Below are positions 4,542 through 33,139 of a stretch of 61,833 nucleotides of DNA, one piece after another; positions within the stretch are counted from its first letter, which is position 1, and each line of letters begins with the position of its first letter. Origin of the DNA: Methanobacteriota archaeon (GTDB taxonomy: Archaea > Thermoplasmatota > Poseidoniia > Poseidoniales > Poseidoniaceae); NCBI GenBank assembly GCA_002722135.1, contig PBKJ01000013.1, positions 34,212 through 96,044 on the forward strand, written 5' to 3'. The position numbers were made by a program, and so were the translations under genes. The notes under the pieces are model-generated. The model searched no databases. It saw only the letters and a list, made by a program, of their open reading frames with translations, and had not been told where the DNA came from.

Positions 4542-4589
4542 GGGCAGCGGTTGGCGTGGAGGGCCTTTCAACCCGACCCCAAAATGGAC

Positions 4590-6785
4590 TCAAGAAGAGG
4601 GCTGCAGGCCACCACGGACGCGCACCGCGATGCCCTTCTGCATCGCCATGGCTTCCTCCGCTGTGCATTGGGCCACGCCATGGGCGACAAGGGCGCCTTC
4701 AGGGTCAAGCACCAAGCAGGAGACGCCCGGACGCAGGTGCTCTGAAGCGGCGAGGATGAAGCCATGCATGACGTTGCGGCCTGCACCGACAAAGGGCACA
4801 GCGTCCTCGATCACGGTGAGGCTTGCAGGTGCTGTCTTGTCGTCGAGGTTGAGGGCATGCAGGATTTTCGCGCCTTCATCGGTCAGGGACAAACCGCCGT
4901 TGCCCAAGCGAGGCGAGAGGATGTGTCGACCTTGGCTGTCCTTGACGTTCCGCACGCGTCCCGTGCTGCTCATGACAAAGGTGGCTTGGCCGACGAAGGC
5001 TGTAGCCACCGAGCGTTCCAGATTCAACTCAAGCATGCTCTTGTCCACGGTTTGGGCGCGAAGTACGTCGAGTTCGACTTCGGTGAGGCCATCGGCATCA
5101 GGGGCCACCCTCGCCTCAAGGCCTGCATCGCGCAAGGCTGCGTCAAAAGCATCGCCCACGCTGTCGGCCCGGAGATCAACCGTGACGAAGGGACGCTGTT
5201 CGAGGTTCAAGCGGGCCAGTTCACGGCGTACCCAAGCGTGATCAACCGGTCGACGCCAGAGCCATTCCGGTCCTTCGACGTGGGCAAAGGGTTGCAGGTC
5301 TTCGAACGACCACGGCACGAGGCCGATGGGGCTGAGCACCAGCACCTCGAGACCGGGGTTGGCGGCACGGGACCGCATCACATGAGCTCCTGCGCGGTCC
5401 CGCCATGGCCCCGGCGCGCCGTGCAGGATAACGACTGCTCCGTCTTCTGAAGCCGGACTCCAAGCGCGATGAAGGCGGCGACGTGAGGCGACAACTGCGG
5501 GGCGGACAAAGGTGTCCTCGCCGGCCCAGCGAAGGGCGCCCTGTCCCGGCGTGTTCTGTGCTTCAACGACCCAATCCCACGCCGATTCCCACTGGCCACG
5601 CGCAGGCGACGTGTCGCTGGCCGCAGCTCGGTCGTTCATCAGCAGGTGCTCGGCCGCGGGGATTGGAGCGGTTCCACGTGCGGGAGAGGTGGTCAACCAG
5701 AGGAAGGCCTCGCGCAGCGCTGGATGTGCGTGGCTGCGGCGTTCGGCGCGTTCCCAGATTCGTCCGTCATGGACGGCTTGGCGGCACGCAGCAAGTTCGG
5801 CCAAGGTCACCTCGAGGTTGAACCGCGAAAGAAGCACCATGCGCTCGTCATCGTCCATCTTCCGCACGTCTTCCGGCGTCAACGAAGCCACGCACGGCAT
5901 CAGCACGGGCCACTCCCGGAGGTCCCCAAGGTGCACGGTGCCGGTCGGCGTCAGCATGCGGTCGTCCCTGGCAAACAACGCGTAGGCGGCTGAATCGAAG
6001 AGATCCGCGCCCAGCGCAATGAGCATGGGGAAGAGCATCGGATGCCCGCAGCCAAACATGTGCACCGGGCGCTCAGGAGGAAGCTCAGGCATGGAAGCGA
6101 GCATGATGCGCGCCAAATCCGCATAGCGCTGCTGCTCCATCACCGGCACAATGCCGCCGATGGGGTGAACGCTGAACCCGTGAGCGCCCATGCCGCGGGC
6201 GCTCATGCGGCGCAGGTCGGCATGCAGCCCCCCTTGGATCGGACCGTTGAGCATGGTGGAGCCGGCGGCCGCAAGGCTGGCCTCCGCGCGCTGTGTGGTC
6301 TCCAGCACCGCCTCGTGCACCTCGTCGCGGGTCATGTCTGGGCGGGTGAACACGTCGAGCATGGTCGCGACGTCAACGCCGATGTCACGTTGAAAGGTCA
6401 CGATTTCTTCCACGCCGACTTCAACGTCCCCGTACACGTAGGCCTGAAAGGTGCCCGAATCGGTCATGATGGCGCCGGGGTAATCCAGCAGGTCATGCAC
6501 GCCGTGCTCAAGCGCATGCTGGCGCAGTTTCTCGTGCTTCCAGATGATGTAACTGTTCGTGATGAGCATCTCGATGCCGTAGGTGTCCCACATCTCACGC
6601 GGTTCGATGGTTCGGAGGTTCGGATTGATGACCGGCAGCAGCGTTGGGGTGGTGACCACCCCATGCGCTGTGGACAACGCCCCCACGCGTGCTCTTCCGT
6701 CACGCGCCTTGACCTCAAAACGGCCCACGTGTTCCTCGCGAGAGGGTTTCGGGTCGTCCCGCGCATGCTCGCGCCACGCCGCCAT
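4590..6785 (-). CDS. tgtA: Archaeosine tRNA-guanine transglycosylase (TgtA) lacking the zinc site
   Basis: 731 residues. The N-terminal catalytic TIM-barrel contains MTDSGTFQ (general base D109), PIQGGLH and LFDSAAY (nucleophile D264), as in archaeal enzymes that insert preQ0 at position 15 of tRNA. A central region with LSPIGLVPWSFED matches the archaeal TgtA/ArcS accessory domain. The C-terminal ~80 residues look like a PUA domain (ILSPRLGNGG, then PFVGAGRNVMHGF). The canonical CxCxxC...H zinc ligands are missing: only C298 remains in MPCVASLTPED, and the usual His-Asn is F322-N323. The barrel is otherwise intact, so the enzyme is probably active. It follows the regulator genes on the same strand. 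Confidence 0.88.
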   Translation of the reverse strand: MAAWREHARDDPKPSREEHVGRFEVKARDGRARVGALSTAHGVVTTPTLLPVINPNLRTIEPREMWDTYGIEMLITNSYIIWKHEKLRQHALEHGVHDLLDYPGAIMTDSGTFQAYVYGDVEVGVEEIVTFQRDIGVDVATMLDVFTRPDMTRDEVHEAVLETTQRAEASLAAAGSTMLNGPIQGGLHADLRRMSARGMGAHGFSVHPIGGIVPVMEQQRYADLARIMLASMPELPPERPVHMFGCGHPMLFPMLIALGADLFDSAAYALFARDDRMLTPTGTVHLGDLREWPVLMPCVASLTPEDVRKMDDDERMVLLSRFNLEVTLAELAACRQAVHDGRIWERAERRSHAHPALREAFLWLTTSPARGTAPIPAAEHLLMNDRAAASDTSPARGQWESAWDWVVEAQNTPGQGALRWAGEDTFVRPAVVASRRRLHRAWSPASEDGAVVILHGAPGPWRDRAGAHVMRSRAANPGLEVLVLSPIGLVPWSFEDLQPFAHVEGPEWLWRRPVDHAWVRRELARLNLEQRPFVTVDLRADSVGDAFDAALRDAGLEARVAPDADGLTEVELDVLRAQTVDKSMLELNLERSVATAFVGQATFVMSSTGRVRNVKDSQGRHILSPRLGNGGLSLTDEGAKILHALNLDDKTAPASLTVIEDAVPFVGAGRNVMHGFILAASEHLRPGVSCLVLDPEGALVAHGVAQCTAEEAMAMQKGIAVRVRGGLQPSS

Positions 6786-8190: not shown

Positions 8191-8654
8191 GCATCCGCCC
8201 CCACGTGCACAAACTCCACGTTTCCGTGAGCCAAAATGAAATCTCGACCGAGGTCGTCAAAACTGTCGAGCAGCACCCTGTCGAAGCGCAAGCGATGCAC
8301 CTCAGGATCGGCTTCGAGGTCGGCCTTGATGCCCTGCAGCGTTCCCGGAGCGGCGCCACAGGATACGCACGCCCCAGTCAAGTCCAAGACCAGGTCAAGG
8401 CCCTCTGAGGTGACCTCGTATTGCGTGGCCTTGATGCCACCACCGTGCCCGTCCAGCGCAGCACGGACCGTGCCAAGCCGCGCCAACAAGGCCGGCACGA
8501 AATGGGGGGTTCCTGCGGCGTCGGAGAGCGGGAGGTTCCTGAGGCGTTCCTCTTCCTCTGGGTCCAGCGACGCCTCAAGCCGCTTGTTGGCCTCCTCCTC
8601 CATGGAAGCCTTGGCTTGGGCGGCGTACATCGCCACCAAATCCTCCGCGTCCAT
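8187..8654 (-). CDS. NifU-like C-terminal domain protein (Fe-S scaffold/carrier)
   Basis: 155 residues. A charged helical N-terminus (about 1-55) precedes a NifU C-terminal (Nfu) domain with the cluster-binding motif GACVSCGAAPGTLQGIK (C96 and C99), the CxxC that holds a bridging Fe-S cluster between subunits in this family. The usual Pro after the second Cys is replaced by Gly. It is divergent from sufC with only 93 bases between the start codons, so it probably receives clusters from the SUF scaffold and passes them to apo-proteins. It is first in a transcript that continues into the two Bat-like regulators (ATGA overlap). Confidence 0.85.
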   Translation of the reverse strand: MDAEDLVAMYAAQAKASMEEEANKRLEASLDPEEEERLRNLPLSDAAGTPHFVPALLARLGTVRAALDGHGGGIKATQYEVTSEGLDLVLDLTGACVSCGAAPGTLQGIKADLEADPEVHRLRFDRVLLDSFDDLGRDFILAHGNVEFVHVGADA

Positions 8655-8747
8655 GAACAGCGCATGCTCACATCACCTTAGAACTCGCGGCCGAAGTGGG
8701 TCTGCTGTAACCATCCGCTTCATAAGACCGGGCTTGGACCAAGACCC

Positions 8748-9494
8748 ATGGCCGGCGGACTGCTTGACGTCAAAGGCCTCCACGCCACCGTGGAAGAGAC
8801 CGAAATCCTTCGCGGGGTTGACTTGACCATCAATGCCGGCGAGGTTCATGCCATCATGGGCCTCAACGGCGCAGGGAAATCCACCCTCGCTTCGGTCATC
8901 ATGGGCCACCCGGACTACGAAATCACGGAGGGGAGCGTCCACTACGACGGCCAGGATTTGACCGAACTCGAAGTTCACGAGCGGGCCCGCTCCGGTCTCT
9001 TTCTGTCCTTCCAGTACCCGCACGCCATTCCCGGTGTCCAAGTCGGTACCTTCCTGCGGAAGTCCGTCGCCGCCGTGCGCGGCGAAGCCCCGAAGGCTCG
9101 CGCCTTCAGGCAGGAACTCCAAGCGGCCATGGACGTTCTTGGCATGGACCGGTCCTTCCTGAGCCGTTACGTCAACGACGGGTTCAGTGGCGGCGAGAAG
9201 AAGCGACTGGAAATCCTCCAGATGCTGCTCCTCCAACCACGGATGGCCCTTCTGGACGAAACCGATTCCGGACTGGACATTGACGCGTTGAAGGCCGTCG
9301 CTCAAGGCATCAACAGCCTCTCCAAAGATAGCGGCGTGCTGCTGATCACCCACTACAACCGCCTGCTCGAATTGGTGGTCCCTGACGTGGTTCACGTGAT
9401 GATCGACGGGCGCATCATCCAGAGCGGTGGCCCAGAATTGGCGCAACGGCTTGAAGCGGACGGTTATGAGTGGCTGATGCCTGCCACGGCATGA
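8748..9494 (+). CDS. sufC: SufC, Fe-S assembly ATPase
   Basis: 248-residue ABC-type ATPase of the SufBCD scaffold. It is cytosolic and supplies ATP hydrolysis for iron entry and cluster assembly. Walker A is GLNGAGKS (residues ~39-46), the signature region is FSGGEKKRLEI, and Walker B is ALLDETDSGLD with the SufC-specific D-E-T-D. Length equals the family norm. The ATG at 8748 is the first gene of the plus-strand suf operon. A weak CATAAG box about 25 bases upstream would make the transcript nearly leaderless (low confidence). The stop is 9 bases before sufB. Confidence 0.95.
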   Translation: MAGGLLDVKGLHATVEETEILRGVDLTINAGEVHAIMGLNGAGKSTLASVIMGHPDYEITEGSVHYDGQDLTELEVHERARSGLFLSFQYPHAIPGVQVGTFLRKSVAAVRGEAPKARAFRQELQAAMDVLGMDRSFLSRYVNDGFSGGEKKRLEILQMLLLQPRMALLDETDSGLDIDALKAVAQGINSLSKDSGVLLITHYNRLLELVVPDVVHVMIDGRIIQSGGPELAQRLEADGYEWLMPATA

Positions 9495-9503
9495 GGTGAG
9501 CAC

Positions 9504-10910
9504 ATGAGCGACGAAGCAAGGGACGCGGTCGGCGAGTACCGCTACGGTTTCCACGACCCCGAAGTGGCCACCATCCGCTTTGACAAGGGCCTCAGCGAAC
9601 AGGTCGTCCGCGACATCTCCGCGCTCAAGAACGAGCCCGAGTGGATGACTGAACTCAGGGTCAAGGCCTACCATCACTTCGTCGAGCGACCGATGCCCGA
9701 CTGGGGCAACGAATCCCTGCTCAACAGCATCGACTTCGAAGCCGTCACCTACTTCCTGCGGTCCTCTGAAGGAACCGAGCGCGACTGGGACGATGTTCCA
9801 GAGGACATCAAGCGCACTTTTGACCGGCTCGGCATCCCCGACGCCGAACAGAAGTGGCTCGGAGGCGTGACCGCCCAGTACGAATCCGAGGCGGTCTACC
9901 ACAGCATCCGCGAGGACCTTGAAGCCCAAGGCGTCCTTTTCCTTGACATGGATTCTGGCCTTCGTGAACATCCCGAGATCGTCAAGCGTTTCTTCAACAC
10001 CGTCATCCCCTACACGGACAACAAATTCAGTGCCCTCAACACCGCAGTGTGGTCCGGTGGCTCGTTCATTTACGTCCCCAAGGGCGTTCACGTTGAAATG
10101 CCCGTCCAGGCCTATTTCCGCATCAACGCGAAGAACATGGGGCAATTCGAACGCACGCTCATCATCGCCGATGAGGGGTCCTCCATCCACTACGTTGAAG
10201 GCTGCACAGCACCGACGTACTCCACCGATTCACTGCACTCTGCTGTGGTCGAACTCGTGGCCATGGACGGAGCAAAAATCCGGTATTCGACCATCCAGAA
10301 CTGGTCCTCGAACGTCTACAACCTCGTGACCAAGCGCGGTGTTGCTCACGCCAACGCCACGGTGGAGTGGGTGGACGGAAACATCGGCTCGAAATTGACG
10401 ATGAAATATCCCGCCGTGATCCTGAAGGGTGAAGGTGCCCATGCAGAAATCATCTCCGTGGCCTACGCCGGAGAAGGCCAGCACCAAGATGCGGGATCGA
10501 AGGTGCACCACCTCGCCCCCCGCACAACCTCCAACATCCTGTCGAAATCCATCTCGAAGAACGGCGGCCGCTCCACCTACCGCGGCATGTTGCAGGTGCG
10601 CCCGAAGGCGGAGGGTTGCCGCTCAAAGGTGGTTTGTGACGCCCTCATGCTCGACGCGGACAGCCGCAGCGACACCTACCCAACGATGGAAGTCGGCAAC
10701 GCCTCCGCCGACCTTGAGCACGAAGCCTCCGTTTCCAAGATTGCAGGCGACCAACTCTTCTACCTCATGAGCCGAGGTCACACCGAGGCTGAAGCGATGG
10801 GCCTCATCGTGAACGGCTTCTTTGAGCCCTTTACCCGCGAACTTCCCATGGAATACGCTTCGGAACTCAACAAGCTCCTCGAGATCGAGATGGAGGGAGC
10901 CATCGGATGA
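9504..10910 (+). CDS. sufB: SufB, Fe-S cluster scaffold protein
   Basis: 468 residues, full length for SufB. It forms the scaffold with SufD and SufC on which the nascent Fe-S cluster is built. Recognisable family blocks are [46 protein letters not shown] (the Cys region used for sulfur transfer), RKVSK-type replaced by [10 protein letters not shown], and YRGMLQV near the C-terminus, followed by the SufB/D C-terminal helix ending [29 protein letters not shown] ribosome-binding sequence lies just before the ATG. The gene overlaps sufD by four bases (ATGA). Confidence 0.95.
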
Positions 10911-20456: not shown

Positions 20457-22148
20457 ATGAACGGGCGGACCTTCGCCGGCGGTGTGGCGCTGATGCTGTT
20501 CAGTGCCCTTTTCCTCGGCATGGCTGCGCCTGGCCTCGATCCCGGCCACTTGGAGGCAGGTCAAGCGCATCCAGATTGGACGTCCGGCCGTGACGATGAC
20601 GATTTTTGCGAGCAGTTTGAGGACGACGAAACGCAGTGCAATCAATATCCACAATGCGAATGGGAAGCCGAAGACGACGATGACGCAGAACCCGGCGAGG
20701 GGGATTGCGAAGAAGCCGAAGACGATGATGACGACGACGACGACGATGATGACGACGACGACGATGACGACGACGACGACGATGACGACGACGACGATGA
20801 CGACGACGACGATAACGGCGGCGGCACCCCCGGAAACGGAGGTGGCGGTGGAGGCTCCAGCGACGTGGACACCGACAACGACGGAACGAACGACAATCTC
20901 GACGACGACGACGACAACGATGGCGTGAACGACAACGCCGATGCCTTCCCCCTCGATGCAAACGAAACGACCGACAGCGACAACGACGGCGTGGGCGACA
21001 ACGCCGACAACGACGATGACAACGACGGCGTGGTGGACGACAACGACGCTTACCCAAACGACCCGAATGAGCAATACAACTTCGACGGCGATAGCGTCGG
21101 AGACAACGCAGACACGGACGACGACAACGACGGCGTTGAAGACGCCTATGACGCCTTTCCTTACGACGCCACGGAGTGGTCGGACCACGACGGTGATGGC
21201 CTCGGCGACAACGCCGACCGGGACGACGACAACGACGGCGTGGCCGATGATCAGGACGCCTTCCCTCTGGATCCGAACGAATCCAACGATGCCGATGGAG
21301 ATGGGGTCGGGGACAACGCCGACAACGACGATGACAACGACGGCGTCAACGACGATGAAGACCAGACGTTTGACAACGAGAACGTGCAAAGGTCGGATCA
21401 CGACGGTGATGGCTACCCCGACGATGAGGACCTGGACGACGACAACGACGGCGTCAACGACGAACTCGATGCCTTCCCGAAAGACCCGTCCGAGACCGCC
21501 AATTTCGACGGCGATGCGGTCGGTGACAACGCGGACACCGACGATGACAACGACGGTGTGCTCGATGAGAACGACGCCTTCCCCTTCAACGCAAGTGAAT
21601 GGTCGGACAACGACTTGGACGGCATCGGCGACAACGCGGACACCGATGATGACAACGACGGCATCCTTGACCAAGACGACGATTTCCCGCGTGATGCAAC
21701 CTACAGCGAAGACCACGACGGAGACGGAATGGCAGACTCGGTGGACCTTGACGACGACAACGACGGTACGCCGGACATCATCGACGCCTTCCCTCTCAAC
21801 GCCTCTGAGAGCTCGGATTACGACGGTGATGGCATCGGTGACAACCGAGACATGGACGACGACAATGACGGTTTCCTCGACGTCTTCGACCGCTATCCAA
21901 GGTTCGCTGGGATCCCCAGCAGCGAGGAACAGGCCGGGGAGGATGGCTCGAACGTGGACGCCCCACAGGGCGAGCAAAGCATGACGTTGAACGCGTCGAA
22001 CCTGATTGTCCTCCTGCTTCTGTCTTCGACGATCAGCATCAGCCTCGTGTTGCTTGCCCAACGCTTCCTGAAGACCAACTCAACCACGCGTCCAGAAGAC
22101 AAGCAAGCCGTGGACATCAACGAAGAGAACCAAGAGGTGGAAGCATGA
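20457..22148 (+). CDS. Asp-rich thrombospondin-3-like surface protein with C-terminal anchor
   Basis: 563 residues. An N-terminal signal peptide (~1-24, hydrophobic ALMLFSALFLGMAA) is followed by an acidic Cys-containing segment, a run of 31 consecutive Asp (residues 89-119), a Gly-rich linker, and about 14 calcium-binding-type repeats of the form DxDxDGxxDNxD (~140-480). A C-terminal membrane segment (~520-545) is followed by a short charged tail. It should be exposed outside the cell and bind many Ca ions. The next gene overlaps its stop (ATGA). The exact length of the Asp run may vary between strains because it is coded by a simple repeat. Confidence 0.9.
   Translation: MNGRTFAGGVALMLFSALFLGMAAPGLDPGHLEAGQAHPDWTSGRDDDDFCEQFEDDETQCNQYPQCEWEAEDDDDAEPGEGDCEEAEDDDDDDDDDDDDDDDDDDDDDDDDDDDDDDDNGGGTPGNGGGGGGSSDVDTDNDGTNDNLDDDDDNDGVNDNADAFPLDANETTDSDNDGVGDNADNDDDNDGVVDDNDAYPNDPNEQYNFDGDSVGDNADTDDDNDGVEDAYDAFPYDATEWSDHDGDGLGDNADRDDDNDGVADDQDAFPLDPNESNDADGDGVGDNADNDDDNDGVNDDEDQTFDNENVQRSDHDGDGYPDDEDLDDDNDGVNDELDAFPKDPSETANFDGDAVGDNADTDDDNDGVLDENDAFPFNASEWSDNDLDGIGDNADTDDDNDGILDQDDDFPRDATYSEDHDGDGMADSVDLDDDNDGTPDIIDAFPLNASESSDYDGDGIGDNRDMDDDNDGFLDVFDRYPRFAGIPSSEEQAGEDGSNVDAPQGEQSMTLNASNLIVLLLLSSTISISLVLLAQRFLKTNSTTRPEDKQAVDINEENQEVEA
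20721..20813 (+). repeat. GAC/GAT trinucleotide tract coding 31 Asp
   Basis: Ninety-three bases consisting only of GAC and GAT codons. The mixture of the two codons is irregular, so the tract is less slippery than a pure triplet repeat. It is a likely site of length variation and of assembly error. Confidence 0.95.
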
Positions 22149-24302: not shown

Positions 24303-24521
24303 CTACGGTTGCATGGATGCCTCGGCGATGAAACCGAAGACTTCGACGGTGATGGTGATCTCCAGGCCGCCAGCGGTCCAGCCCGTAGTTGGCGAAACGG
24401 TGGTCTGCAGCGGGCTGGAAGGCTGGACGTCGTGCGAAACATCGCCCAATTCGGTGGGTGCATCGAACACCGGTGCGAGCGCGACGGCCAGCAGAATGGC
24501 GGTCACCGTCCACACGCGCAT
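24303..24521 (-). CDS. Small secreted or membrane-anchored protein
   Basis: 72 residues from the ATG at 24521, or 79 from a TTG at 24542. A hydrophobic N-terminus (VWTVTAILLAVALAPVF) looks like a signal peptide or anchor. The rest is a short Thr/Ser-rich beta segment ending EVFGFIAEASMQP. No family is recognised. Other frames are open on both strands here, so it is only moderately supported; the signal-like start is the main evidence. Confidence 0.45.
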   Translation of the reverse strand: MRVWTVTAILLAVALAPVFDAPTELGDVSHDVQPSSPLQTTVSPTTGWTAGGLEITITVEVFGFIAEASMQP

Positions 24522-24667
24522 GAACCAACCTTGCTGTCGCAAACAAAGAGACTACGGCAACGCTCGCGATACCGGATTGATTTCGTAAGTGTAGAGGGAT
24601 AATTTTCGGCAGCAATTATTTGTGTCCTCGTAGTGTCGGTCACCTCATTCGCGTCGGGGGCGACATT

Positions 24668-25186
24668 GTGATTCAACTGGTATCATTGAAGGATGCTGGT
24701 TTGGTCCTCTCTGCAAACTCACGTGTTCTGATCATTGGCACCATAGGATCTGGAAAATCATATGCCACGAGGCACCTGGCTCAGCAGAATGAGGCCATTA
24801 TGGTCTACTCTATCGATGATTTTCGTAGGGAGTGTATGGCCTCGTCAGAATCTGGAGAGGCAGCTGCTCGGCAAAAGTTTCTCCTCGCTTGCACTGAACA
24901 AGACGGGATTTTCGAATTCACTGGTGCGGGCCCTCTCCACGAACCAGTTATGCAGGCTGCAACAAAAAATCCGTTCGATTTCATCCTCCGTGTGCACACA
25001 CCCACTCAAGTTTGTATGGAACGTGTGGCCTTTCGGCGTGACTGGCCCCCCTACCCAACTAACATCATGCCAGATTCAGATCTCATCAATGCCATTTCCA
25101 ATGAACTGGATCGGCACGGCTTCGACAGACAATCATCGGATTGGAACGGCCAGCTGCTTCTGCATGTCTCGGGAGTGATGGAATGA
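24668..25186 (+). CDS. Small P-loop kinase or NTPase
   Basis: 172 residues from a GTG at 24668 preceded by GGGGG; the frame is open a little further upstream without an ATG. Walker A is GTIGSGKS (24-31), followed by YSIDDFRRE at about residue 50, whose Asp-Asp sits where nucleoside- and shikimate-kinase-like enzymes hold a catalytic acid. A lid-like Arg segment appears in VAFRRDWPPYPTN. The substrate is unknown; phosphorylation of a sugar, cyclitol or nucleoside would fit the pathway. It is the first gene of the island operon and its stop overlaps the next start (ATGA). Confidence 0.7.
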   Translation: MIQLVSLKDAGLVLSANSRVLIIGTIGSGKSYATRHLAQQNEAIMVYSIDDFRRECMASSESGEAAARQKFLLACTEQDGIFEFTGAGPLHEPVMQAATKNPFDFILRVHTPTQVCMERVAFRRDWPPYPTNIMPDSDLINAISNELDRHGFDRQSSDWNGQLLLHVSGVME

Positions 25187-26592
25187 ACCAGCAATCCATC
25201 ATTGAATCCATCCGCACATGGGCAACAGGTTACACTCATGTCCGTTCTGCTTTCTTGTTGGGATCGCAGGCTCGTGGGGATGCCAATGGCCTTTCGGATG
25301 TGGACATCGTGATCGAAACATCCGCCAAACCGAGGTCTGTGCTCCGCCAACTCCAACGGTTGCTTCCCGTCGAATACCATCAATTGTGGGCAGATGGCAA
25401 ACTCGTCCTTTGGGTCGGCCCTACACAAACCAAAGTTGACTGCTGGGTTGTTGATGATGCAACGCAATCCGCAAAGTACTACTGGGGTTCCAATCCATCG
25501 AAATTCGATGATTGGATTTTGATTGATCATGAAAACAACTTGGAGGAGCGGCTCCTCAAAACGCATCCAACGGCAACCAAATACCAAGACGTCGGTTGGT
25601 TGAACCATCGATTCGTCAATCAACTCGAGGCAGCATCGAAACATCATGCACGTAGTGACACATTCAGGTACATGTTCGCCATGCAAATCGCTTACGACGC
25701 TCTCATCAGGCTCGCATGCCATGTTGCGGGAGTTACTGATTCCCTTTTTCTGCCAAAGGCGGGCCACAGGGTGCTGGACCGTTTGTTGCCGGAATGGACT
25801 TCAGATCGTTTCGGAACGACGGGAAATCTTCGTACCGCAAACGAGCGCAAGCACAACCTGCTCGACTGTTGGAAAGACCTGCATGAATTGGCAATTAAGA
25901 GGGGCTTTTACTTGGGTGATTACGAGGAAGGATTGAGGTTCCTCGAGAGAATCATGGCACGAGACCACTTCTGGAACTTCCGGGACTTGCTGGATGGCAC
26001 CACGACACCCTCTCTCAGAGGCCGGTTGTTTCGCGGGGCATGCCTTGTACCCCACCTTGGTGAATCTGCACTCGATGAGTTGCTCCAATCATCTGGAATC
26101 AAGTGGATTGTTGACCTACGGCGAGAGGAAGAACGAGACCAACGACCCTATCCTGATGACTTTCCGGTCCAGGTCCATCACTGCCCTACGTGGTATACCT
26201 CTGAGCGCCCAGAGGCGTGGCCGCAAAGGCGATCTGAGTTGGACAACGATTACCCCGGTGTTCTGATGAGTATGGCTCCCCATGTGCCACTCATCCTCAA
26301 ACTCATCGCCTCAGGAGAGATTGGATACATTCACTGCCACGCTGGAAGGGACCGAACAGGCGTCATCTGTGCCCTTGTTCTTCGCATATTGGGGCATTCC
26401 AGGCACGACCTACGGCATTCGTACGGCCTCTCCTCCGACGCAGACATGGAAGCGTTCGACGTCATCCTTAGCTGGTTTGATGATGAAGAGAAATTTCGAT
26501 GCTTACTTGCTGACCTTGGCGTCAATGAATCATTGATGACAGGGGTGCGCAATGCCATGCAAACCGAAATCGTACAGGAGGTCCCAACTTGA
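25183..26592 (+). CDS. Nucleotidyltransferase-protein tyrosine phosphatase fusion
   Basis: 469 residues. The N-terminal domain has the minimal nucleotidyltransferase signature GSQARGDANGLSDVD (27-41), with a third acidic residue at D86 in TKVDCWVV. A helical middle domain (~105-270) resembles the HEPN-like or C-terminal helical bundle of antibiotic nucleotidyltransferases. The C-terminal third is a tyrosine or dual-specificity phosphatase: LFRGACLVP, IVDLRREEER, and the P-loop HCHAGRDRTGV with C385 and R391 (CX5R). I know of no standard family with this architecture. It could add and remove nucleotidyl or phosphoryl groups on the pathway intermediate, or protect the host from the product. The start overlaps the kinase stop. 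Confidence 0.8.
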   Translation: MNQQSIIESIRTWATGYTHVRSAFLLGSQARGDANGLSDVDIVIETSAKPRSVLRQLQRLLPVEYHQLWADGKLVLWVGPTQTKVDCWVVDDATQSAKYYWGSNPSKFDDWILIDHENNLEERLLKTHPTATKYQDVGWLNHRFVNQLEAASKHHARSDTFRYMFAMQIAYDALIRLACHVAGVTDSLFLPKAGHRVLDRLLPEWTSDRFGTTGNLRTANERKHNLLDCWKDLHELAIKRGFYLGDYEEGLRFLERIMARDHFWNFRDLLDGTTTPSLRGRLFRGACLVPHLGESALDELLQSSGIKWIVDLRREEERDQRPYPDDFPVQVHHCPTWYTSERPEAWPQRRSELDNDYPGVLMSMAPHVPLILKLIASGEIGYIHCHAGRDRTGVICALVLRILGHSRHDLRHSYGLSSDADMEAFDVILSWFDDEEKFRCLLADLGVNESLMTGVRNAMQTEIVQEVPT

Positions 26593-27527
26593 CTGCCCAT
26601 ATCCTTATCACTGGAGCAGCAGGACTCATTGGAACCGCCGCCCGAGCTCATTTCGAATCATCGGGATGGTATGTTTCCACGCTCGACCTCAAAGCCGAGG
26701 ATTTAGACGGAAGGGGAATTGATTTTGTTGGCGACATCGTTGAATTTGATGGATTGAGCGATGCCCTCAACGGCGTGGACGGTGTGCTCCATCTGGCCGC
26801 AGTTTCAAGAGTAATCGACGCTGAGTTGGATAAAGCAGAGTGCACGAGAGTGAACGTTTTCGGCACTTCTCGTCTGCTGAAGGAGGCTTCATTGGCGGGA
26901 TGCAAGTGGTTCATTTTTGGCAGCAGTCGGGAAGTCTACGGCGAACCCACCTCTTTCCCGGTGAAGGAAGAGGAGGGAGTTGCCCCAATCAACCACTACG
27001 GACATGCGAAAGTGGAAGGAGAGCGAATGGTCCGCCATCACTGTGAACGGAACGGGATGGTCCATTCGAATCTCAGGTTCTCCAACGTCTACGGCCACCC
27101 GGGAGATCACCCGACCAGATTAATCAACGCATTCTTGCGAAATGCGCTGAAATCTGAGCCACTCGAAATCCATGGTGGGGGTCAGGTTTTCGACTTTACC
27201 CATCTCGACGATACGGTCACAGCAATTTTGAACGCGGCTAAAAAACTGCACGAGGAGCGAATTCCTCTCCCGCCAATCCACATACTCCCCGGAACGCCTG
27301 TTTCAATTGAAGATCTTGCACGTCATGTCTTGGAAATCACCGGTAGCCAATCCAATGTGGTTTACACCAAAGGCCGTGACTACGATGTTGAGCGGTTTCA
27401 CGGCGACCCGAGTAGGCTCCGGGACCTGCTCGGTCATGAGTGCAAGGTCGACATCCGCACTGGTTTGGAGCAGAGCGCAGCCCTTTTTCGAAAGCATTTG
27501 GCAACCAAGGGTCGTGGTGTTGAATGA
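26589..27527 (+). CDS. NAD-dependent epimerase/dehydratase (extended SDR)
   Basis: 312 residues. The N-terminal Rossmann motif is GAAGLIG (9-15). The catalytic triad region reads FGSSREVYGE and then YGHAK (YxxxK), the extended SDR pattern used on nucleotide sugars. The C-terminal half (SNVYGHPGD, then VFDFTHLDDTV) is typical of UDP-glucose 4-epimerase or dTDP-glucose dehydratase relatives. It probably makes a modified NDP-sugar for the glycosyltransferase encoded next. The start is a TTG overlapping the previous stop (TTGA), supported by a perfect AGGAGGT six to seven bases upstream. Confidence 0.88.
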   Translation: MTAHILITGAAGLIGTAARAHFESSGWYVSTLDLKAEDLDGRGIDFVGDIVEFDGLSDALNGVDGVLHLAAVSRVIDAELDKAECTRVNVFGTSRLLKEASLAGCKWFIFGSSREVYGEPTSFPVKEEEGVAPINHYGHAKVEGERMVRHHCERNGMVHSNLRFSNVYGHPGDHPTRLINAFLRNALKSEPLEIHGGGQVFDFTHLDDTVTAILNAAKKLHEERIPLPPIHILPGTPVSIEDLARHVLEITGSQSNVVYTKGRDYDVERFHGDPSRLRDLLGHECKVDIRTGLEQSAALFRKHLATKGRGVE

Positions 27528-28831
27528 AGGTGTTGCTGGTCATTCACGGATACCCTCGCAGGTACAATGCAGGATCGGAGGTGTATACTCAAACGCTCGC
27601 CCATGCCTTGAACGATGCTGGCTGCGAAGTCGAGGTGTTTGCCAGAGAGGAGGACCCGTTCCTCCCAGATTATCATCTGAGAACAGAGCATGATCCGGTC
27701 GAATCTGAGATTTCGGTTCATTTGGTCAACCATGCGAGATCCAATGCGCGGTTCCAGAACGACATCATCGATGACGTGTTCAGAAGCCTGATGTCTAAGG
27801 TGAACCCTGATATCGTTCATTTCGGCCACTTGAATCACCTATCGATGGGGCTACCTAGAGTGGCGAAGGCCATGGGGGCATCGACGGTGTTCACACTCCA
27901 CGACTTCTGGTTGATGTGCCCCAGAGGCCAGTTCCTGCAATGGGGATTGACGGCACATGAGCCTTGGGCACTCTGCGATGGTCAAGAAGATGCGAAGTGC
28001 GCAGCGAAATGTTTCAACCGATTCGTCGAAGGATTCGACGAGGAGCTGGAACTCCGACATTGGGAGCAATGGGTTTCCACCAGAATGCAAGCAAGTCGCT
28101 TGGCGTGTGATGCCATCGACCGCTTTCTCGCACCTTCGAAACGGCTGATGGAGCGACACGTGGATGAGTTTGGCATCGATGCATCGAGCGTTGAATATCT
28201 CGACTATGGTTTCGACCTAAGCCGATTGGGAGGGCGCTCTCGTGCGCAAGAATCATCCTTCGTCTTTGGATACATCGGGCGACATCATCCTTCGAAGGGC
28301 ATTCATGATCTCATCGATGCATTCTGTGGGTTGGAAGGGGAACCAATCTTGAGAATCTGGGGACGTCCTCAGGGGCAATTGACCCAATCACTCAAGCGTC
28401 GCGCAGCCTCATCTCGCGTTGAAACAGACAGAATCGAGTGGTTGCCTGAATACAACAATGAGAACATCGTTAAGGAAGTCTTCAATCGATGCGACTGCAT
28501 CGTTGTGCCCTCGATCTGGGATGAGAATTCACCCCTCGTCATTCATGAGGCTCAGCAATGCGGCGTGCCGGTGATCACAGCAGAACACGGTGGGATGGGA
28601 GAATACGTTCAGAATGGCGTCAACGGCCTGACGTTCACTCATCGAGACGCAGAGGACCTTCGTTCCTCGATGCAGAACGCACTTGACAACCCGGAACATT
28701 TGGCTCAATTGGGTCACAAAGGATACTTGCATTCCGAAGACGGTCAGATTCCATCCAACAAAGCCCACGCAGCAGCAATCCTCCATCGCTATGAACAACT
28801 GATTTCAACGAAAGTGGAAGTGATGAATTGA
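27524..28831 (+). CDS. GT4-type glycosyltransferase
   Basis: 435 residues, GT-B fold. The N-terminal domain begins with MKVLLVIHGYPRRYNAGSEV (acceptor side) and has FTLHDFWLMCPRG, a frequent GT4 motif. The C-terminal donor domain has FGYIGRHHPSKGIHDLI and the EX7E block DENSPLVIHEA, then GVPVITAEHGGMGEYV, which binds the NDP-sugar. There are no membrane segments, so it acts in the cytosol. It starts on the stop of the epimerase gene (ATGA), pointing to use of the epimerase product as donor. Several Cys around 150-180 (LCDGQEDAKCAAKCF) are unusual and might bind metal. Confidence 0.9.
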   Translation: MKVLLVIHGYPRRYNAGSEVYTQTLAHALNDAGCEVEVFAREEDPFLPDYHLRTEHDPVESEISVHLVNHARSNARFQNDIIDDVFRSLMSKVNPDIVHFGHLNHLSMGLPRVAKAMGASTVFTLHDFWLMCPRGQFLQWGLTAHEPWALCDGQEDAKCAAKCFNRFVEGFDEELELRHWEQWVSTRMQASRLACDAIDRFLAPSKRLMERHVDEFGIDASSVEYLDYGFDLSRLGGRSRAQESSFVFGYIGRHHPSKGIHDLIDAFCGLEGEPILRIWGRPQGQLTQSLKRRAASSRVETDRIEWLPEYNNENIVKEVFNRCDCIVVPSIWDENSPLVIHEAQQCGVPVITAEHGGMGEYVQNGVNGLTFTHRDAEDLRSSMQNALDNPEHLAQLGHKGYLHSEDGQIPSNKAHAAAILHRYEQLISTKVEVMN

Positions 28832-29889
28832 CCCTCGCAGGAGACCACCCAATGACGCTTGAGCATCTGACCGCCCCATGGCGAATCACGTTCGACACCA
28901 ACCCCGATGATTGCAACCTGAACTGCGTGATGTGTGAGGAACATTCGCCCTACAGCCCATCCCACCAGGCTCGTGTGAATGGCGAATTGGAGTACAGGCG
29001 CATGGACATCGAGACAATCGAGCGGGTCATTGCCGAGTGCGCATCCAAAGGTCTACGAGAGATTATTCCCTCCACAATGGGCGAGCCGCTGATATACAAG
29101 CACATGCCGAGGATTATCGAATTGTGTCATGAGCATCGAGTGAAATTAAATCTGACCACGAACGGTACTTTTCCTCGATTGGGGGCTGAAAAATGGGCCC
29201 AGCTTATCGTACCGATTGGGTCGGATGTGAAGTTCAGCTGGAACGGTGCCAACCAAAGCGCACAGAGCCTCGTGATGGTCAACAACGACTTTGAGAAGAA
29301 CATGCGAGACCTCCGCACCTTCATTGGCGTGAGGGATGCACATGCAGCAGATGGTGGCAATTACTGTTCAGTGACGCTGCAGATGACATTCATGGAAATG
29401 AACTTGCAGCAAGTCCCCAAGGTGGTTGAACTCGCAATTCGAGAAGGTGTTGACCGGGTGAAGGGGCATCATCTCTGGGCTCACTTTGCCGAAATCAAAG
29501 ATCAAAACATGAGACGGAACCGAGACGCAATACTCCGTTGGAACACCATCGCAAGGGAGTCCATTAAAATCGCCAACGAGAATCCACTCCCGAATGGGAA
29601 GAGGATTGTTCTCGCCAACATTTACGAGTTGGATCCAGACCACGGCGGAGAGCTGCATCCTGCTGCGACATGCCCCTTCCTTGGTCAAGAAGCATGGGTG
29701 AACCATGAAGGACGATTCGACCCATGCTGTTCACCCGATGAGTTGCGACAAACGCTAGGCTCCTTTGGCAATGTGGAGGATGACGGTTTGATGGCGATCT
29801 GGCAGAGTGCCAAGTATCGGGACCTGATTGAGAACTATCTCGAGAGCGATGTCTGCCGCCAATGTAACATGAGGCAGATGCCGGGGTGA
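28828..29889 (+). CDS. Radical SAM enzyme with SPASM/twitch-like C-terminus
   Basis: 353 residues from a TTG at 28828 that overlaps the previous stop (TTGA, GGAAGTGAT upstream), or 345 from an ATG at 28852 with AGGAG upstream. The radical SAM motif CNLNCVMC (CxxxCxxC, C29/C33/C36 from the TTG) binds the 4Fe-4S cluster; STMGEPL and LTTNGT are the SAM- and barrel-contact blocks. The C-terminal cysteines (ATCPFLGQ, DPCCSPD, CRQCNM) resemble a SPASM or twitch auxiliary-cluster domain. Relatives oxidise or epimerise sugars and cyclitols (BtrN, NeoN) or mature peptides. With no peptide gene nearby, a small-molecule substrate is favoured. Confidence 0.87.
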   Translation: MTLAGDHPMTLEHLTAPWRITFDTNPDDCNLNCVMCEEHSPYSPSHQARVNGELEYRRMDIETIERVIAECASKGLREIIPSTMGEPLIYKHMPRIIELCHEHRVKLNLTTNGTFPRLGAEKWAQLIVPIGSDVKFSWNGANQSAQSLVMVNNDFEKNMRDLRTFIGVRDAHAADGGNYCSVTLQMTFMEMNLQQVPKVVELAIREGVDRVKGHHLWAHFAEIKDQNMRRNRDAILRWNTIARESIKIANENPLPNGKRIVLANIYELDPDHGGELHPAATCPFLGQEAWVNHEGRFDPCCSPDELRQTLGSFGNVEDDGLMAIWQSAKYRDLIENYLESDVCRQCNMRQMPG

Positions 29890-29893
29890 AACA

Positions 29894-31480
29894 ATGGCCA
29901 ATCTCCCACGACCTTCGGATTGCGGCACATTCCACATCAGCTCCGAAGGTGAAGGAATCTATACGATGAGATTCGATTGGGTTTTGCCGTTCCACGAACC
30001 CAGCCTTGCTCCTGTCGGAGACGATACGGGAGCGTACCACATCCATCTCGACGGAAAACCAGCTTACGAACAAAGGTTTGATCGCACTTTTGGGTTCTAT
30101 GGCGGTTTTGCTGCAGTCATTTTTGAGGGCACATGGTTCCATATCACAGCTGACGGGAAGAGAGCATACCCAAAATCCTGGAATTGGTGCGGAAACTTCC
30201 AGCAGAACCGATGTACGGTCAGAACTGCCGATGGCCATTATCACCACATTAGGCCCGACGGTTCCATGCTCAATGGAGGTCCACATTCGTACGCAGGCGA
30301 CTTCCGTGAGGGCTCGGGGGTCGTTCGCGGGATGGATGGCATGTGTTGGCACATCGACAAGGAGGGCGCACCGATTCATGATTCGAAATTCCTCGACCTC
30401 GATGTCTTCCACAAGGGATTCGCCAGAGCAAGGGACAGGCGCGGATGGCATCACATTGATCGTGCGGGAAAGGACATCTCCGAAGGCAAAAGATATGCTG
30501 AACTCGAACCGTTCTATAATGGTCAAGCACTCGCTCGCTCGCTCACAGGTGAATATGTTGTCATCAATGAGTTTGGTGAAATCAAAAACCGGCCGCTACG
30601 TCCTGATACTGATATTGAGGTTGAATTCCAGAGAATCGCCGTATCCTACTGGAAGCCTATTGCGATTCGATTGGGGATTCTCGCAGGGCTCGCGGGAGGA
30701 CATCCTGAACTTGAAATCACGTCTGAAGACAAGATGGTCCTGCAACAAGCATGGATGGAACTCGGATTGTTGGGGGTCCAGATGGATTTGACTCAATCTG
30801 GTGAACTACTAGCGCAAGACGAGAGATGGCGGGATCGATTTCTCTACTGGACTGGTCCACAGTTCAAGGCATGGGTTGAGGCGGAGAATCGCTTGATGCA
30901 TGTGGAGAAGAGGTCTGAATTCTTCATCGAACAATCAAAGGACCCAAAGATGGCGAACTTGATTCACAGGGTTCTTGATTCGTACGCCAACGACGATTGG
31001 AGGGGAATCTCTTCTGAATTGCAACTGTCCCCAAGTGATGTTGTGGTGGATATAGGTGGGGGCAAAGGTGCCCTTCTGGAGGAGATTGGTGACTCAGTAT
31101 CGGCCCGGGTTCTCGTGGACCTACCAGAGGTCATCGATTTAGTGAACTTCACAGAAATTGAGACAGTGTCTGCTGACATTTTCTCTGATGAGATTCCAAC
31201 CGGTGATGTGTATCTCATGTCACGAATCCTGCACGATTGGGGTGATTCGAAGTGCATCGAATTGCTGTACCGCATCCCAAAGACCGCTCGATTAATCATC
31301 ATCGATCGAATCGCTGAACCAGAGAAGCATGGCTTGCTCAGCCTGAACATGCTCTTGCTGACCGGCGGTAGAGAGAGAACACATTCTGAATGGATGGCGA
31401 TATTCTCTGAAGCGGGTTGGAGTTTGACGGCGCAATCCACTTGGGCAAGTCATGCAATCATGCACTTGGAGGCTTGCTGA
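29894..31480 (+). CDS. WG-repeat protein fused to O-methyltransferase
   Basis: 528 residues. The N-terminal ~225 residues consist of about seven degenerate 40-residue WG-type repeats with a recurrent xYHIxxDGxxxY...RFD...F...A pattern (YHIHLDGKPAYEQRFD, WFHITADGKRAY, HHIRPDG, WHIDKEG, WHHIDRAGK). A helical linker and dimerisation-like region (~240-370) precede a SAM-dependent O-methyltransferase domain of the Methyltransf_2 class: VVVDIGGGKG from 383, LVDLPEVI, and SRILHDWGD with the presumed base H447. It probably methylates a hydroxyl of the pathway product, with the repeats acting as a docking or carbohydrate-binding platform. The ATG lies four bases after the radical SAM stop. Confidence 0.83.
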   Translation: MANLPRPSDCGTFHISSEGEGIYTMRFDWVLPFHEPSLAPVGDDTGAYHIHLDGKPAYEQRFDRTFGFYGGFAAVIFEGTWFHITADGKRAYPKSWNWCGNFQQNRCTVRTADGHYHHIRPDGSMLNGGPHSYAGDFREGSGVVRGMDGMCWHIDKEGAPIHDSKFLDLDVFHKGFARARDRRGWHHIDRAGKDISEGKRYAELEPFYNGQALARSLTGEYVVINEFGEIKNRPLRPDTDIEVEFQRIAVSYWKPIAIRLGILAGLAGGHPELEITSEDKMVLQQAWMELGLLGVQMDLTQSGELLAQDERWRDRFLYWTGPQFKAWVEAENRLMHVEKRSEFFIEQSKDPKMANLIHRVLDSYANDDWRGISSELQLSPSDVVVDIGGGKGALLEEIGDSVSARVLVDLPEVIDLVNFTEIETVSADIFSDEIPTGDVYLMSRILHDWGDSKCIELLYRIPKTARLIIIDRIAEPEKHGLLSLNMLLLTGGRERTHSEWMAIFSEAGWSLTAQSTWASHAIMHLEAC

Positions 31481-32071
31481 ATGGAATTCTCATTCAAACG
31501 ATTCTCGCCATCTTGCCAGTTACCAGATGTTGGTTTACTCGTCCTAAGGCATGGCCCCAGAAGCGGAGGCAAGTTCCCTCGTGAAAGTGAGCCTCTCTCA
31601 ACAGAAGGGGCTGAATCGGTGACGCAATTAGCGCTGAAGTGGAAAAACTTCTCGCGCCCGAATCGTCTTGTTTCGAGCCCTTTGGAACGCTGCCTGGAGA
31701 CTGCGGAGATTCTGAACACAGTCTGCGATTGGAATCAACGAATAGTTGAATCGAGGTTGCTTGGAGGGCACGGGGCATTTGTTGTTGACTCCAGAGCCCT
31801 TGGGAGCCAACTGTCGAGGCTTTCTGACAGCGAGGGCCGGAATCTGTTCATTTCTCACATGAGAGGAGAGGATGTCGCAGGCATGCGGGATTTAGCCGAA
31901 GGCTCGAAATTGATTCTCGATGAACTGTATCCGGCCTCCAAAACAGAACTCGTTATCGCCATTTCACATGAGACGATCATTGCAGCTTTGGGTGCTTATC
32001 TTGGCGATGACCCGACGAAATGGCCCGAACCTATGTCGGGAGTTCATGTTGTAAGGAAGGATGAGTCATGA
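31481..32071 (+). CDS. Histidine phosphatase (phosphoglycerate-mutase-like)
   Basis: 196 residues. The phospho-acceptor motif LVLRHGPRSGG has R23 and H24, with SSPLERCLETAEIL as the second conserved block and AISHETIIAALG containing the second catalytic His. It is short, like SixA/CobC-type members, and probably removes phosphate from a small-molecule intermediate. It begins directly after the methyltransferase stop (TGA-ATG) and overlaps the dioxygenase start (ATGA). It gives the operon a second phosphatase in addition to the tyrosine-phosphatase domain. Confidence 0.83.
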   Translation: MEFSFKRFSPSCQLPDVGLLVLRHGPRSGGKFPRESEPLSTEGAESVTQLALKWKNFSRPNRLVSSPLERCLETAEILNTVCDWNQRIVESRLLGGHGAFVVDSRALGSQLSRLSDSEGRNLFISHMRGEDVAGMRDLAEGSKLILDELYPASKTELVIAISHETIIAALGAYLGDDPTKWPEPMSGVHVVRKDES

Positions 32072-33027
32072 AAGAAATGAACCAGTTGAGGGAAGCTGGA
32101 TTCGTCATGGTCCCCTCAAAGCTCGACGTGGAGACGGCCACCCACTGGGTGAGGAGGATAGAAGAATCGCTCCCGAACCTTGCGAATCAAGTGGGTTGCA
32201 GCTTAGATGAGTATCTGATGTCTGTGTCTGCCTGGAGCGGGAAAAATCCCCTCGTGCATGAATTCGCTGAGGTACTTCGAAGTGACATCACCTCCACTGT
32301 CGAAGCAATCACTGGAGGACAGATTGAACTCTTGGAATCAAAACTGCTCATGAAGGGAGAGAACTGTCCTTGGGCAACACATGCTCACCAAGATATTGCG
32401 TATCGTTGGCAGGGAAAGAGGCAGCAATACCAGTTTTCAACCTGGCTTTCCTTGTCAACCATCGGACCGATGCAAGCTCCGCTTGAGTTTCTTCCAAAAT
32501 CTCACCTCGAGCCCGTTTCAGAATACCAAGATTATCTTGATCCAGAGTTCGTTGATCGTAAGGATACCCAAGAATGGAAGAAGAAGCATCAATCCATTGT
32601 GATGAACCCGGGAGACATGGTCATCTTCGATTCCCGTGTTTGGCATGCTTCCTCCGAATGGGCCGCGCCGCCTCGAAGATATGCCATGGTTATGCGATGG
32701 ATTGTTGCTGGTATCAAAGACACAGAGGTTCCATCGCCGAGAGGGGAGCGAAGATGGATGTATGATTTCTCAACATGGCTCGAACAATCTCTTCAGAAGT
32801 TTACTGATGAGAAGTCACAACCATCGGAATCAAGTTTGGAGGTTGCAATCGGGTTGGATTCGATATCGGCTGAACTCAGGAGTTTGCTTCAACGATACAG
32901 GATCAACCGTGCGGCAGGGATACACCATGGGGGCACTGCTCAGCGAGGTATGTTATGGGGCCCTCTGGCAGAAGCGGTCAGAGCAGAACTTCGAGCCCGG
33001 GACGTGGACGCAGTAGCGCTCCCATAG
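32068..33027 (+). CDS. PhyH-family Fe(II)/2-oxoglutarate dioxygenase
   Basis: 319 residues with a phytanoyl-CoA dioxygenase-like jelly roll. The metal triad is H107 and D109 (THAHQDIAY) with H193 (DSRVWHASS), and R203 or R204 in PPRRYAMVMRW would bind 2-oxoglutarate. All key residues are present, so it should be active. Family members hydroxylate natural products, sugars and lipids. It is the last gene of the operon and overlaps the phosphatase stop (ATGA). The C-terminal ~100 residues (after WMYDFSTWL) extend beyond the usual PhyH core. The coding sequence ends 40 bases before tRNA-Ala. Confidence 0.87.
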   Translation: MKEMNQLREAGFVMVPSKLDVETATHWVRRIEESLPNLANQVGCSLDEYLMSVSAWSGKNPLVHEFAEVLRSDITSTVEAITGGQIELLESKLLMKGENCPWATHAHQDIAYRWQGKRQQYQFSTWLSLSTIGPMQAPLEFLPKSHLEPVSEYQDYLDPEFVDRKDTQEWKKKHQSIVMNPGDMVIFDSRVWHASSEWAAPPRRYAMVMRWIVAGIKDTEVPSPRGERRWMYDFSTWLEQSLQKFTDEKSQPSESSLEVAIGLDSISAELRSLLQRYRINRAAGIHHGGTAQRGMLWGPLAEAVRAELRARDVDAVALP

Positions 33028-33066
33028 CGACGCCCTCCGGTTCGGGATATGACGCATGAGTAGGAG

Positions 33067-33139
33067 TGGACGCTGGGGGATTTGAACCCCCGGCCTTCTG
33101 GTTGCAAACCAGACGCTCTTCCAACTGAGCTAAGCGCCC
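33067..33139 (-). tRNA. tRNA-Ala (anticodon UGC)
   Basis: The minus strand folds as a complete 73-base cloverleaf: acceptor GGGCGCT paired with AGCGTCC, which includes the G3-U70 pair diagnostic of alanine tRNAs; D arm GCTC/GAGC; anticodon arm TCTGG/CCAGA with loop TTTGCAA (anticodon TGC); T arm GGGGG/CCCCC with TTCAAAT; discriminator A73. No CCA is encoded and no intron is seen. It marks the right edge of the low-G+C island. Confidence 0.97.

Follow-up and report, generated by a model that had tools for sequence, protein, structure and literature searches.

A WG-repeat/O-methyltransferase fusion in an archaeal genomic island belongs to a widespread gene cluster with a conserved glycosyltransferase, radical SAM and WG core

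Introduction

The closest described system is the Undecim Cluster of Wolbachia phage WO, whose genes UC1-UC11 correspond to WD0611-WD0621 (PMC9203015, PMC4701759). WD0614 was described as an unusual protein in which a KWG repeat domain is fused to an O-methyltransferase (OMT) (PMC4701759, citing Gillespie et al. 2012), and syntenic homologues were reported in Desulfovibrio, Haliangium, Capnocytophaga and Saprospira (PMC4701759). The Undecim Cluster region is expressed in Wolbachia (PMC4683655) and is duplicated in one obligate Wolbachia strain (PMC12801941). The phage WO record carries an epimerase, a fused GT4 glycosyltransferase-radical SAM (rSAM) protein, the WG-OMT protein, a PhyH dioxygenase, threonine aldolases, a glycerol-3-phosphate transporter and a UDP-glucose dehydrogenase, together with an ABC transporter that is annotated as hypothetical and was recognised from its sequence.

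Proteins of the WG_beta_rep family (PF14903) show the same 34-35 residue repeat signature as the family studied here, which differs from them in being fixed at six repeats and a half, in being about 50% identical across bacteria and archaea and in having repeat-specific invariant residues. Other WG-like proteins of the same genomes score far lower (E 1e-18 versus 1e-112).

Here we analysed a stretch of archaeal DNA of 61,833 nucleotides, referred to as the window, which encodes a WG-OMT fusion. A literature search on WG repeats combined with radical SAM enzymes returned nothing relevant, and the prior description was found in the Wolbachia papers. The fusion itself is not new, having already been described for Wolbachia WD0614; as far as the literature was searched, the new elements are the archaeal island variant, the breadth of the family, the WG domain as a core component with an invariant site, the exchange of its partners, a minimal unit in a phage and, in UC4, a degenerate OMT.

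Results

Gene neighbourhood and comparison with the Undecim Cluster

The fusion gene lies within a run of eight forward-strand genes that overlap or abut from 24620 to 33027, all contained in a genomic island. The features, in window coordinates, are the following.

24573-33065, genomic island with the entire eight-gene run (low G+C; end of homology to same-genus genomes)
24620-25186, + strand, P-loop NTPase/small-molecule-kinase-like protein (AAA_33/AAA_18-like, below Pfam cut-offs)
25141-26592, + strand, fusion of a nucleotidyltransferase and a tyrosine phosphatase, Y_phosphatase3 (PF13350, E 3e-23; PF01909, E 2e-5)
26589-27527, + strand, NAD-dependent sugar epimerase/dehydratase, UC2-like (PF01370, E 3e-38)
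27524-28831, + strand, GT4 glycosyltransferase, core, equivalent to the N-terminal half of UC3 (PF00534, E 4e-27)
28828-29889, + strand, radical SAM/SPASM enzyme, core, equivalent to the C-terminal half of UC3 (PF04055 and PF13186 above cut-offs; CNLNCVMC motif)
29894-31480, + strand, WG propeller-like/O-methyltransferase fusion, UC4/WD0614-like (528 aa, ATG start)
29915-30589, + strand, WG domain, aa 8-232 (six full repeats and a half repeat; propeller-like fold; bears the invariant ring)
30605-31477, + strand, O-methyltransferase region, aa 238-528, including a helical dimerisation-like part (fold match to MmcR/DtpM/LaPhzM/DnrK)
31043-31078, + strand, SAM-binding motif VVDIGGGKGALL, aa 384-395 (intact in the window; lost in the Wolbachia/Arsenophonus group)
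31232-31240, + strand, catalytic His-Asp-Trp, aa 447-449 (intact in the window)
31481-32071, + strand, histidine phosphatase, HisP (PF00300, E 5e-8; fused to WG domains in other Thermoplasmatota as WG-HisP-WG, L022-L024)
32068-33027, + strand, PhyH-type 2-oxoglutarate dioxygenase, UC5-like (PF05721, E 7e-13)
33066-33139, - strand, tRNA-Ala (TGC), 3' end at the right island edge (ARAGORN)

A precursor peptide between the cluster genes was considered and dropped, since the genes overlap or abut, and the TIGR04324 'Sporadic carbohydrate cluster' oxygenase was rejected for the PhyH gene, as the match was far under the cut-off (E 0.07).

The G+C content of the island is 0.50-0.54 (from about 25 to 33 kb) compared with 0.56-0.65 outside, and nucleotide homology to same-genus genomes ends near 24573 (left) and at 33065 (right), the left edge being less exact because genome G007 carries a different 5.1 kb stretch at 24363, within the left flank. 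The flanks share 80-98% nucleotide identity with same-genus genomes, thus placing the fusion gene in an archaeal chromosome and ruling out an assembly artefact or mis-binning of the island. The tRNA-bounded right flank is common to the window and two relatives, the fusion is sporadic (3 of 98 relatives), and these archaea seem to have a variable locus at this site. The host is an archaeon of the Poseidoniales type, since the public record gives the label Candidatus Poseidoniales to a same-family genome with the fusion. Elsewhere in the window, at 20457-22148, we observed a very Asp-rich protein with calcium-binding-type DxDxDG repeats, which appeared thrombospondin type 3-like by eye.

The epimerase, GT4, rSAM and WG/OMT genes of the window are homologous to UC2-UC4 and stand in the same order, with identities of 42% to UC2, 48% (GT4) and 54% (rSAM) to UC3 and 41% to UC4 over the WG domain, while the PhyH dioxygenase shares 27% identity with UC5. 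UC3 is a fused GT4-rSAM protein, whereas the window has two overlapping genes (27524-28831 and 28828-29889); the window OMT keeps the SAM motif that UC4 has lost, and a histidine phosphatase, a P-loop NTPase and a nucleotidyltransferase-phosphatase are added. By sequence comparison, we class the window cluster as a relative of the Undecim Cluster core and not as an Undecim Cluster, because none of the UC1 and UC6-UC11 types (GlmU-like protein, ABC exporter, two threonine aldolases, transporters, UDP-Glc dehydrogenase) was found among the eight island ORFs at 24620-33027.

The closest solved relative of the window epimerase is MoeE5. At 25141-26592 a Pol-beta-type nucleotidyltransferase is joined to a tyrosine phosphatase, and this fusion recurs, with homologues in the clusters L082, L084, L101 and L105; L044 has instead a histidine phosphatase whose C-terminal extension is nucleotidyltransferase-like by eye and gave no Pfam hit.

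Domain architecture of the fusion protein

The ORF check of the window confirmed an open frame at 29894-31480 on the forward strand. The initial annotation had reported about seven WG repeats in this frame. Tandem 34-35 residue repeats with the signature [YWF]-H/G-[IV]-..-D-G-...-Y are indeed present and follow a strict register (H14, H49, H83, H118, H153 and H187, spacing 34-35), G lying about 5 and Y about 9 residues after each H, but their number had to be corrected to six complete repeats followed by a C-terminal half repeat (aa 219-228). A half repeat after six full ones is what would be expected for ring closure. The Pfam model WG_beta_rep (PF14903) scored 24.9 bits in the window protein (E 2e-5), slightly below the curated cut-off of 25.6, which close homologues exceeded, mostly with 32-64 bits (e.g., 48.8 and 63.5), so that the similarity to WG repeats is well detectable in the family.

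The same annotation had placed a complete Methyltransf_2-type domain with an LHDWGD motif after the repeats, which our data support: Methyltransf_2 (PF00891) matched aa 346-510 with 92.9 bits against a cut-off of 22.3 (E 2e-26), and LHDWGD (ILHDWGD in the motif reading) was located at aa 446-451. The DxGGGxG SAM motif reads VVDIGGGKGALL, and the His of HDW is taken by us to be the catalytic base, as in plant and bacterial Methyltransf_2 enzymes. The dimerisation domain PF08100 gave no Pfam match in the window protein and was matched in homologues, and the fold match covers aa 233-528. Fold comparison of the OMT region returned MmcR, DtpM, LaPhzM and DnrK with Z scores of 26-27 over about 290 residues; the SAM motif and the catalytic HDW are as in these enzymes, from which the window protein differs by its N-terminal WG domain and an identity of only about 20%, and some members of the WG-OMT family are degenerate. 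The window O-methyltransferase is presumably active. Neither NCBIfam nor PHROGs contained a specific model for the WG-OMT protein.

Distribution of the family and definition of its core

A scan of public-genome contigs with the single window protein as query gave no matches, and an alignment of WG domains was needed; the resulting WG-domain profile retrieved 151 loci from public genomes, 80 of which were kept. WG loci were found in Myxococcota, Chloroflexota, Pseudomonadota, Cyanobacteriota, Chlamydiota, Planctomycetota, Verrucomicrobiota, Bacteroidota, Gemmatimonadota, Thermodesulfobacteriota and Promethearchaeota, with an identity of about 45-60% over almost the whole WG domain across the surveyed loci. 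WG and OMT occurred in one ORF in 62 loci from about a dozen phyla, the window included, next to GT4 and rSAM/SPASM genes, which bears out the recurrent fusion beside glycosyltransferase and radical SAM genes initially proposed. The fusion is not limited to this assembly and was also recovered from another Poseidoniales genus at 52% identity; this recurrence, together with the 62 loci, excludes both chance and an assembly artefact as its source. The phylogenetic tree mixes phyla and places the phage WO copy among Pseudomonadota, the position of the window being unsure (long branches), and horizontal spread of the cluster is the best explanation.

Linkage was counted in the 49 loci with enough flanking sequence, where rSAM and GT4 both lay beside WG in all but one (48/49), and where a recognisable OMT was present in 41, a phosphatase in 39 and an epimerase in 34. 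GT4 and rSAM form a single ORF in 39 loci. A reverse test, independent of WG retrieval, used the rSAM protein as query instead of WG. In one bacterial family the rSAM gene was detected in 2 of 151 genomes and in Myxococcota in 16 of 188, and in both cases exactly the same genomes (2 and 16, respectively) carried WG, adjacent on the contig.

Mean pairwise identity was 0.63 for rSAM, 0.61 for GT4, 0.57 for WG (a value somewhat inflated by retrieval of the loci through WG similarity, the others being unselected), 0.42 for OMT, 0.41 for the epimerase and 0.39 for HisP. Within the alignment of fusions, 55 of 225 columns were at least 95% conserved in the WG domain against 9 of 181 in the OMT. The near-obligate linkage and the higher conservation of WG compared with the OMT demonstrate that WG, GT4 and rSAM constitute the invariant core, with the OMT as an optional component. 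The cluster proteins all have correlated distance matrices (r 0.62-0.91), and Mantel tests gave no separation of WG and OMT; co-inheritance on its own therefore does not set WG apart.

A sequence search against solved structures gave no match for either WG or rSAM, and the nearest curated families of the rSAM protein are maturases such as TIGR04317, far below cut-off. A UDP-glucose-type dehydrogenase is carried by nine other clusters. NodU/CmcH-type carbamoyltransferases were observed near the GT4-rSAM-WG core in L041, L063, L082 and L093, with a different tailoring set, and two further radical SAM genes lie near it in L063/L093.

Predicted fold and invariant ring of the WG domain

Because the OMT fills the list of a full-length fold search, structure prediction and fold search were run on the WG domain alone. 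The AlphaFold (AF2) model had a pLDDT of 96.5. The top Foldseek matches were beta-propellers, at moderate TM values of 0.4-0.6, and structure comparison gave VIA Z scores of 8-10 with an rmsd of 5-8 A, the rmsd of the best propeller matches taken together being 5-10 A. Since these matches are only moderate, the predicted fold is more safely termed propeller-like than propeller.

The structural positions of the repeats (offsets -19, -14, -10 and -7: H, G, Y and R) are alike in most repeats, whereas around the F of F-x-x-G (register offsets -2, -1, +1 and +2) the repeats differ from one another and each has a conserved residue of its own, mostly at 94-100%, at positions that were chosen post hoc from an alignment already seen. 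The residue at F+1 is H34, Y69, Q103, R/K/H138, H173 and Y208 from the first to the sixth repeat; F-1 is G67, N101, D136 and P206 in repeats 2, 3, 4 and 6, and F+2 is K174 in repeat 5 and N209 in repeat 6. In the window protein the ring comprises aa 34, 36, 67, 69, 98, 100, 101, 103, 133, 135, 136, 138, 173, 174, 205, 208 and 209. Such a repeat-specific pattern would be expected if equivalent points of the ring faced one shared, asymmetric site.

Exchange and decay of the fused enzymes

The partners fused to WG elsewhere are largely the enzyme types that stand beside the window WG-OMT gene. L027, L052 and L053, from a Poseidoniales relative and SAR202, have ORFs with PhyH in front of WG-OMT, a histidine phosphatase is enclosed in WG-phosphatase-WG proteins (L022-L024), and WG is fused to a domain resembling P-loop kinases in L084 and L093 and to a protein kinase domain in L063; standalone WG proteins are also found (e.g., L020, L021, L041, L065, L082). 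In L093 (2393-3331), directly behind a full WG protein, a class II aldolase domain is joined to a short run of WG sequence.

Viral contigs were scanned as well, and two contigs were found in one scan and none in the others. The 21.7 kb environmental phage contig L134 (IMGVR_UViG_3300048930_000955), with helicase, RusA, SSB and Sak4 genes, encodes at 3506-6723, amid replication genes, a fused GT4-rSAM protein together with a standalone WG protein, with no OMT or other tailoring enzyme beside them. The phage radical SAM family phrog_21308 matches the whole L134 GT4-rSAM protein (E 5e-203), while the WG protein encoded after it is without a PHROGs family. A role in phage DNA hypermodification, suggested by this contig, was set aside, as most carriers are cellular chromosomes.

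Most fusions, including that of the window, have intact DxGGGxG and HDW motifs. The SAM motif is lost and HDW altered in phage WO UC4, in an Arsenophonus plasmid and in L064, L079, L083, L089, L095 and L100, where the degraded SAM motif reads, for example, IIGVGRTAKMWL, and ILLFGVHSLFLA in UC4; the Wolbachia/Arsenophonus reading comes from one phage WO record and one Arsenophonus plasmid. Ring residues are unchanged in the OMT-degenerate copies wherever the WG domain is complete. The enzyme fused to WG is thus both exchanged and decaying between lineages. In the phage WO record (L123, MN180251.1, 10040-11635) the methyltransferase domain of UC4/WD0614 is without the SAM-binding motif and HDW, which makes the published 'methylation' label doubtful, and by its sequence this label is probably wrong for UC4. 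In the Arsenophonus plasmid (L124, CP132902.1) we also noticed GT4 and rSAM frames in an unannotated gap at 8300-10760, between the epimerase and WG-OMT; these frames are not among the genes listed for CP132902.1.

Discussion

The initial annotation had linked the WG array to one specific tailoring enzyme, with a role perhaps in docking of a carbohydrate or a carrier, either of which would be a candidate ligand only. Docking is still the most likely role of the array; its treatment as an add-on to a single enzyme has to be abandoned, as WG belongs to the conserved core and the OMT is one of several swappable partners, degenerate in one clade. In the mechanism that we propose, the GT4/rSAM pair would make the common intermediate of the pathway. 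The WG domain would form a closed, small-bladed, propeller-like ring with one asymmetric site, lined by the repeat-specific invariant residues, and this site might capture the GT4/rSAM intermediate. Swappable tailoring enzymes, fused behind or in front of WG or encoded adjacent to it, would then act on the held intermediate: an intact O-methyltransferase in the window and a 2OG dioxygenase, a histidine phosphatase or a kinase elsewhere. The product would be a decorated glycoside-type metabolite. A uronate-derived glycoside would be no more than a reasonable guess, based on the closeness of the epimerase to MoeE5 and on the UDP-glucose-type dehydrogenase of nine other clusters; a nucleoside-antibiotic-like product, in view of the dioxygenase, threonine aldolase and carbamoyltransferase of some clusters, is only a guess.

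We give an even chance to this reading of the sequences, in which the WG propeller would be the hub that holds the GT4/rSAM intermediate for exchangeable tailoring enzymes; a protein-protein interface or a catalytic site would explain the invariant patch just as well. Many propellers act as platforms for interactions, and the strict co-occurrence and adjacency with GT4-rSAM, as well as the exchangeability of the fused enzymes, would also suit a protein-protein docking module whose invariant face binds the GT4-rSAM protein and builds a multi-enzyme complex, leaving the small molecule untouched. The invariant H, Y, Q, N, D, K and E at equivalent repeat positions look like a polar pocket and not a flat interface, an argument that is not conclusive, and we regard the docking module as a possibility to be taken seriously, although unlikely. 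Propeller enzymes exist too, and the His, Tyr, Lys, Asp and Glu residues of the ring might themselves catalyse a core step on the GT4/rSAM intermediate, such as an isomerisation, an elimination or a hydrolysis. Many potentially catalytic residues are nearly 100% conserved even where the fused OMT is degenerate or absent, and standalone WG proteins exist; however, neither sequence similarity to a solved enzyme nor a specific catalytic signature was recognised, and we regard an enzymatic WG domain as distinctly unlikely.

SPASM enzymes often modify proteins, and rSAM/SPASM maturases act on peptides and enzymes, hence WG might instead be the substrate, whose invariant residues are modified by GT4 and/or rSAM to give a protein-bound glycan or cofactor. 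The position of WG directly downstream of rSAM, the invariance of W98, H173, K174, Y208 and N209 and the relationship of the rSAM protein to maturases, though far below cut-off, point in this direction; the epimerase, OMT, PhyH, carbamoyltransferase and UDP-Glc dehydrogenase, which look like small-molecule or glycan tailoring enzymes, and the conservation of Cys99/Cys107 at only about 90% argue against it, and we consider it improbable. WG repeats are common, and to our knowledge no function has been assigned to generic WG-repeat proteins, which would leave room for a passive spacer or a chance fusion devoid of a role, but this is contradicted by a conservation above that of the catalytic domain, the strict linkage, the fixed repeat number and the invariant ring, and we hold it to be very improbable indeed.

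Returning to the WG domain as part of the core, a wider proposal can be put forward tentatively, as one that we would not expect to hold but that deserves consideration: WG could be an unrecognised catalytic or modified component, either an enzyme or a protein substrate of GT4/rSAM, and a new type of biosynthetic system, shared by archaea, bacteria and phages, could have GT4-rSAM-WG as its minimal unit. The WG family described here, with its fixed length, strictly conserved putative site and constant enzymatic context, makes a function directly testable. The same core is found in the Undecim Cluster, an expressed and horizontally moving Wolbachia island suspected in host interaction, and its relatives in the free-living, culturable Azospira oryzae, Ectothiorhodospira, Myxococcus, Corallococcus, Sorangium and Ramlibacter would, unlike obligate symbionts, offer a route to the product.
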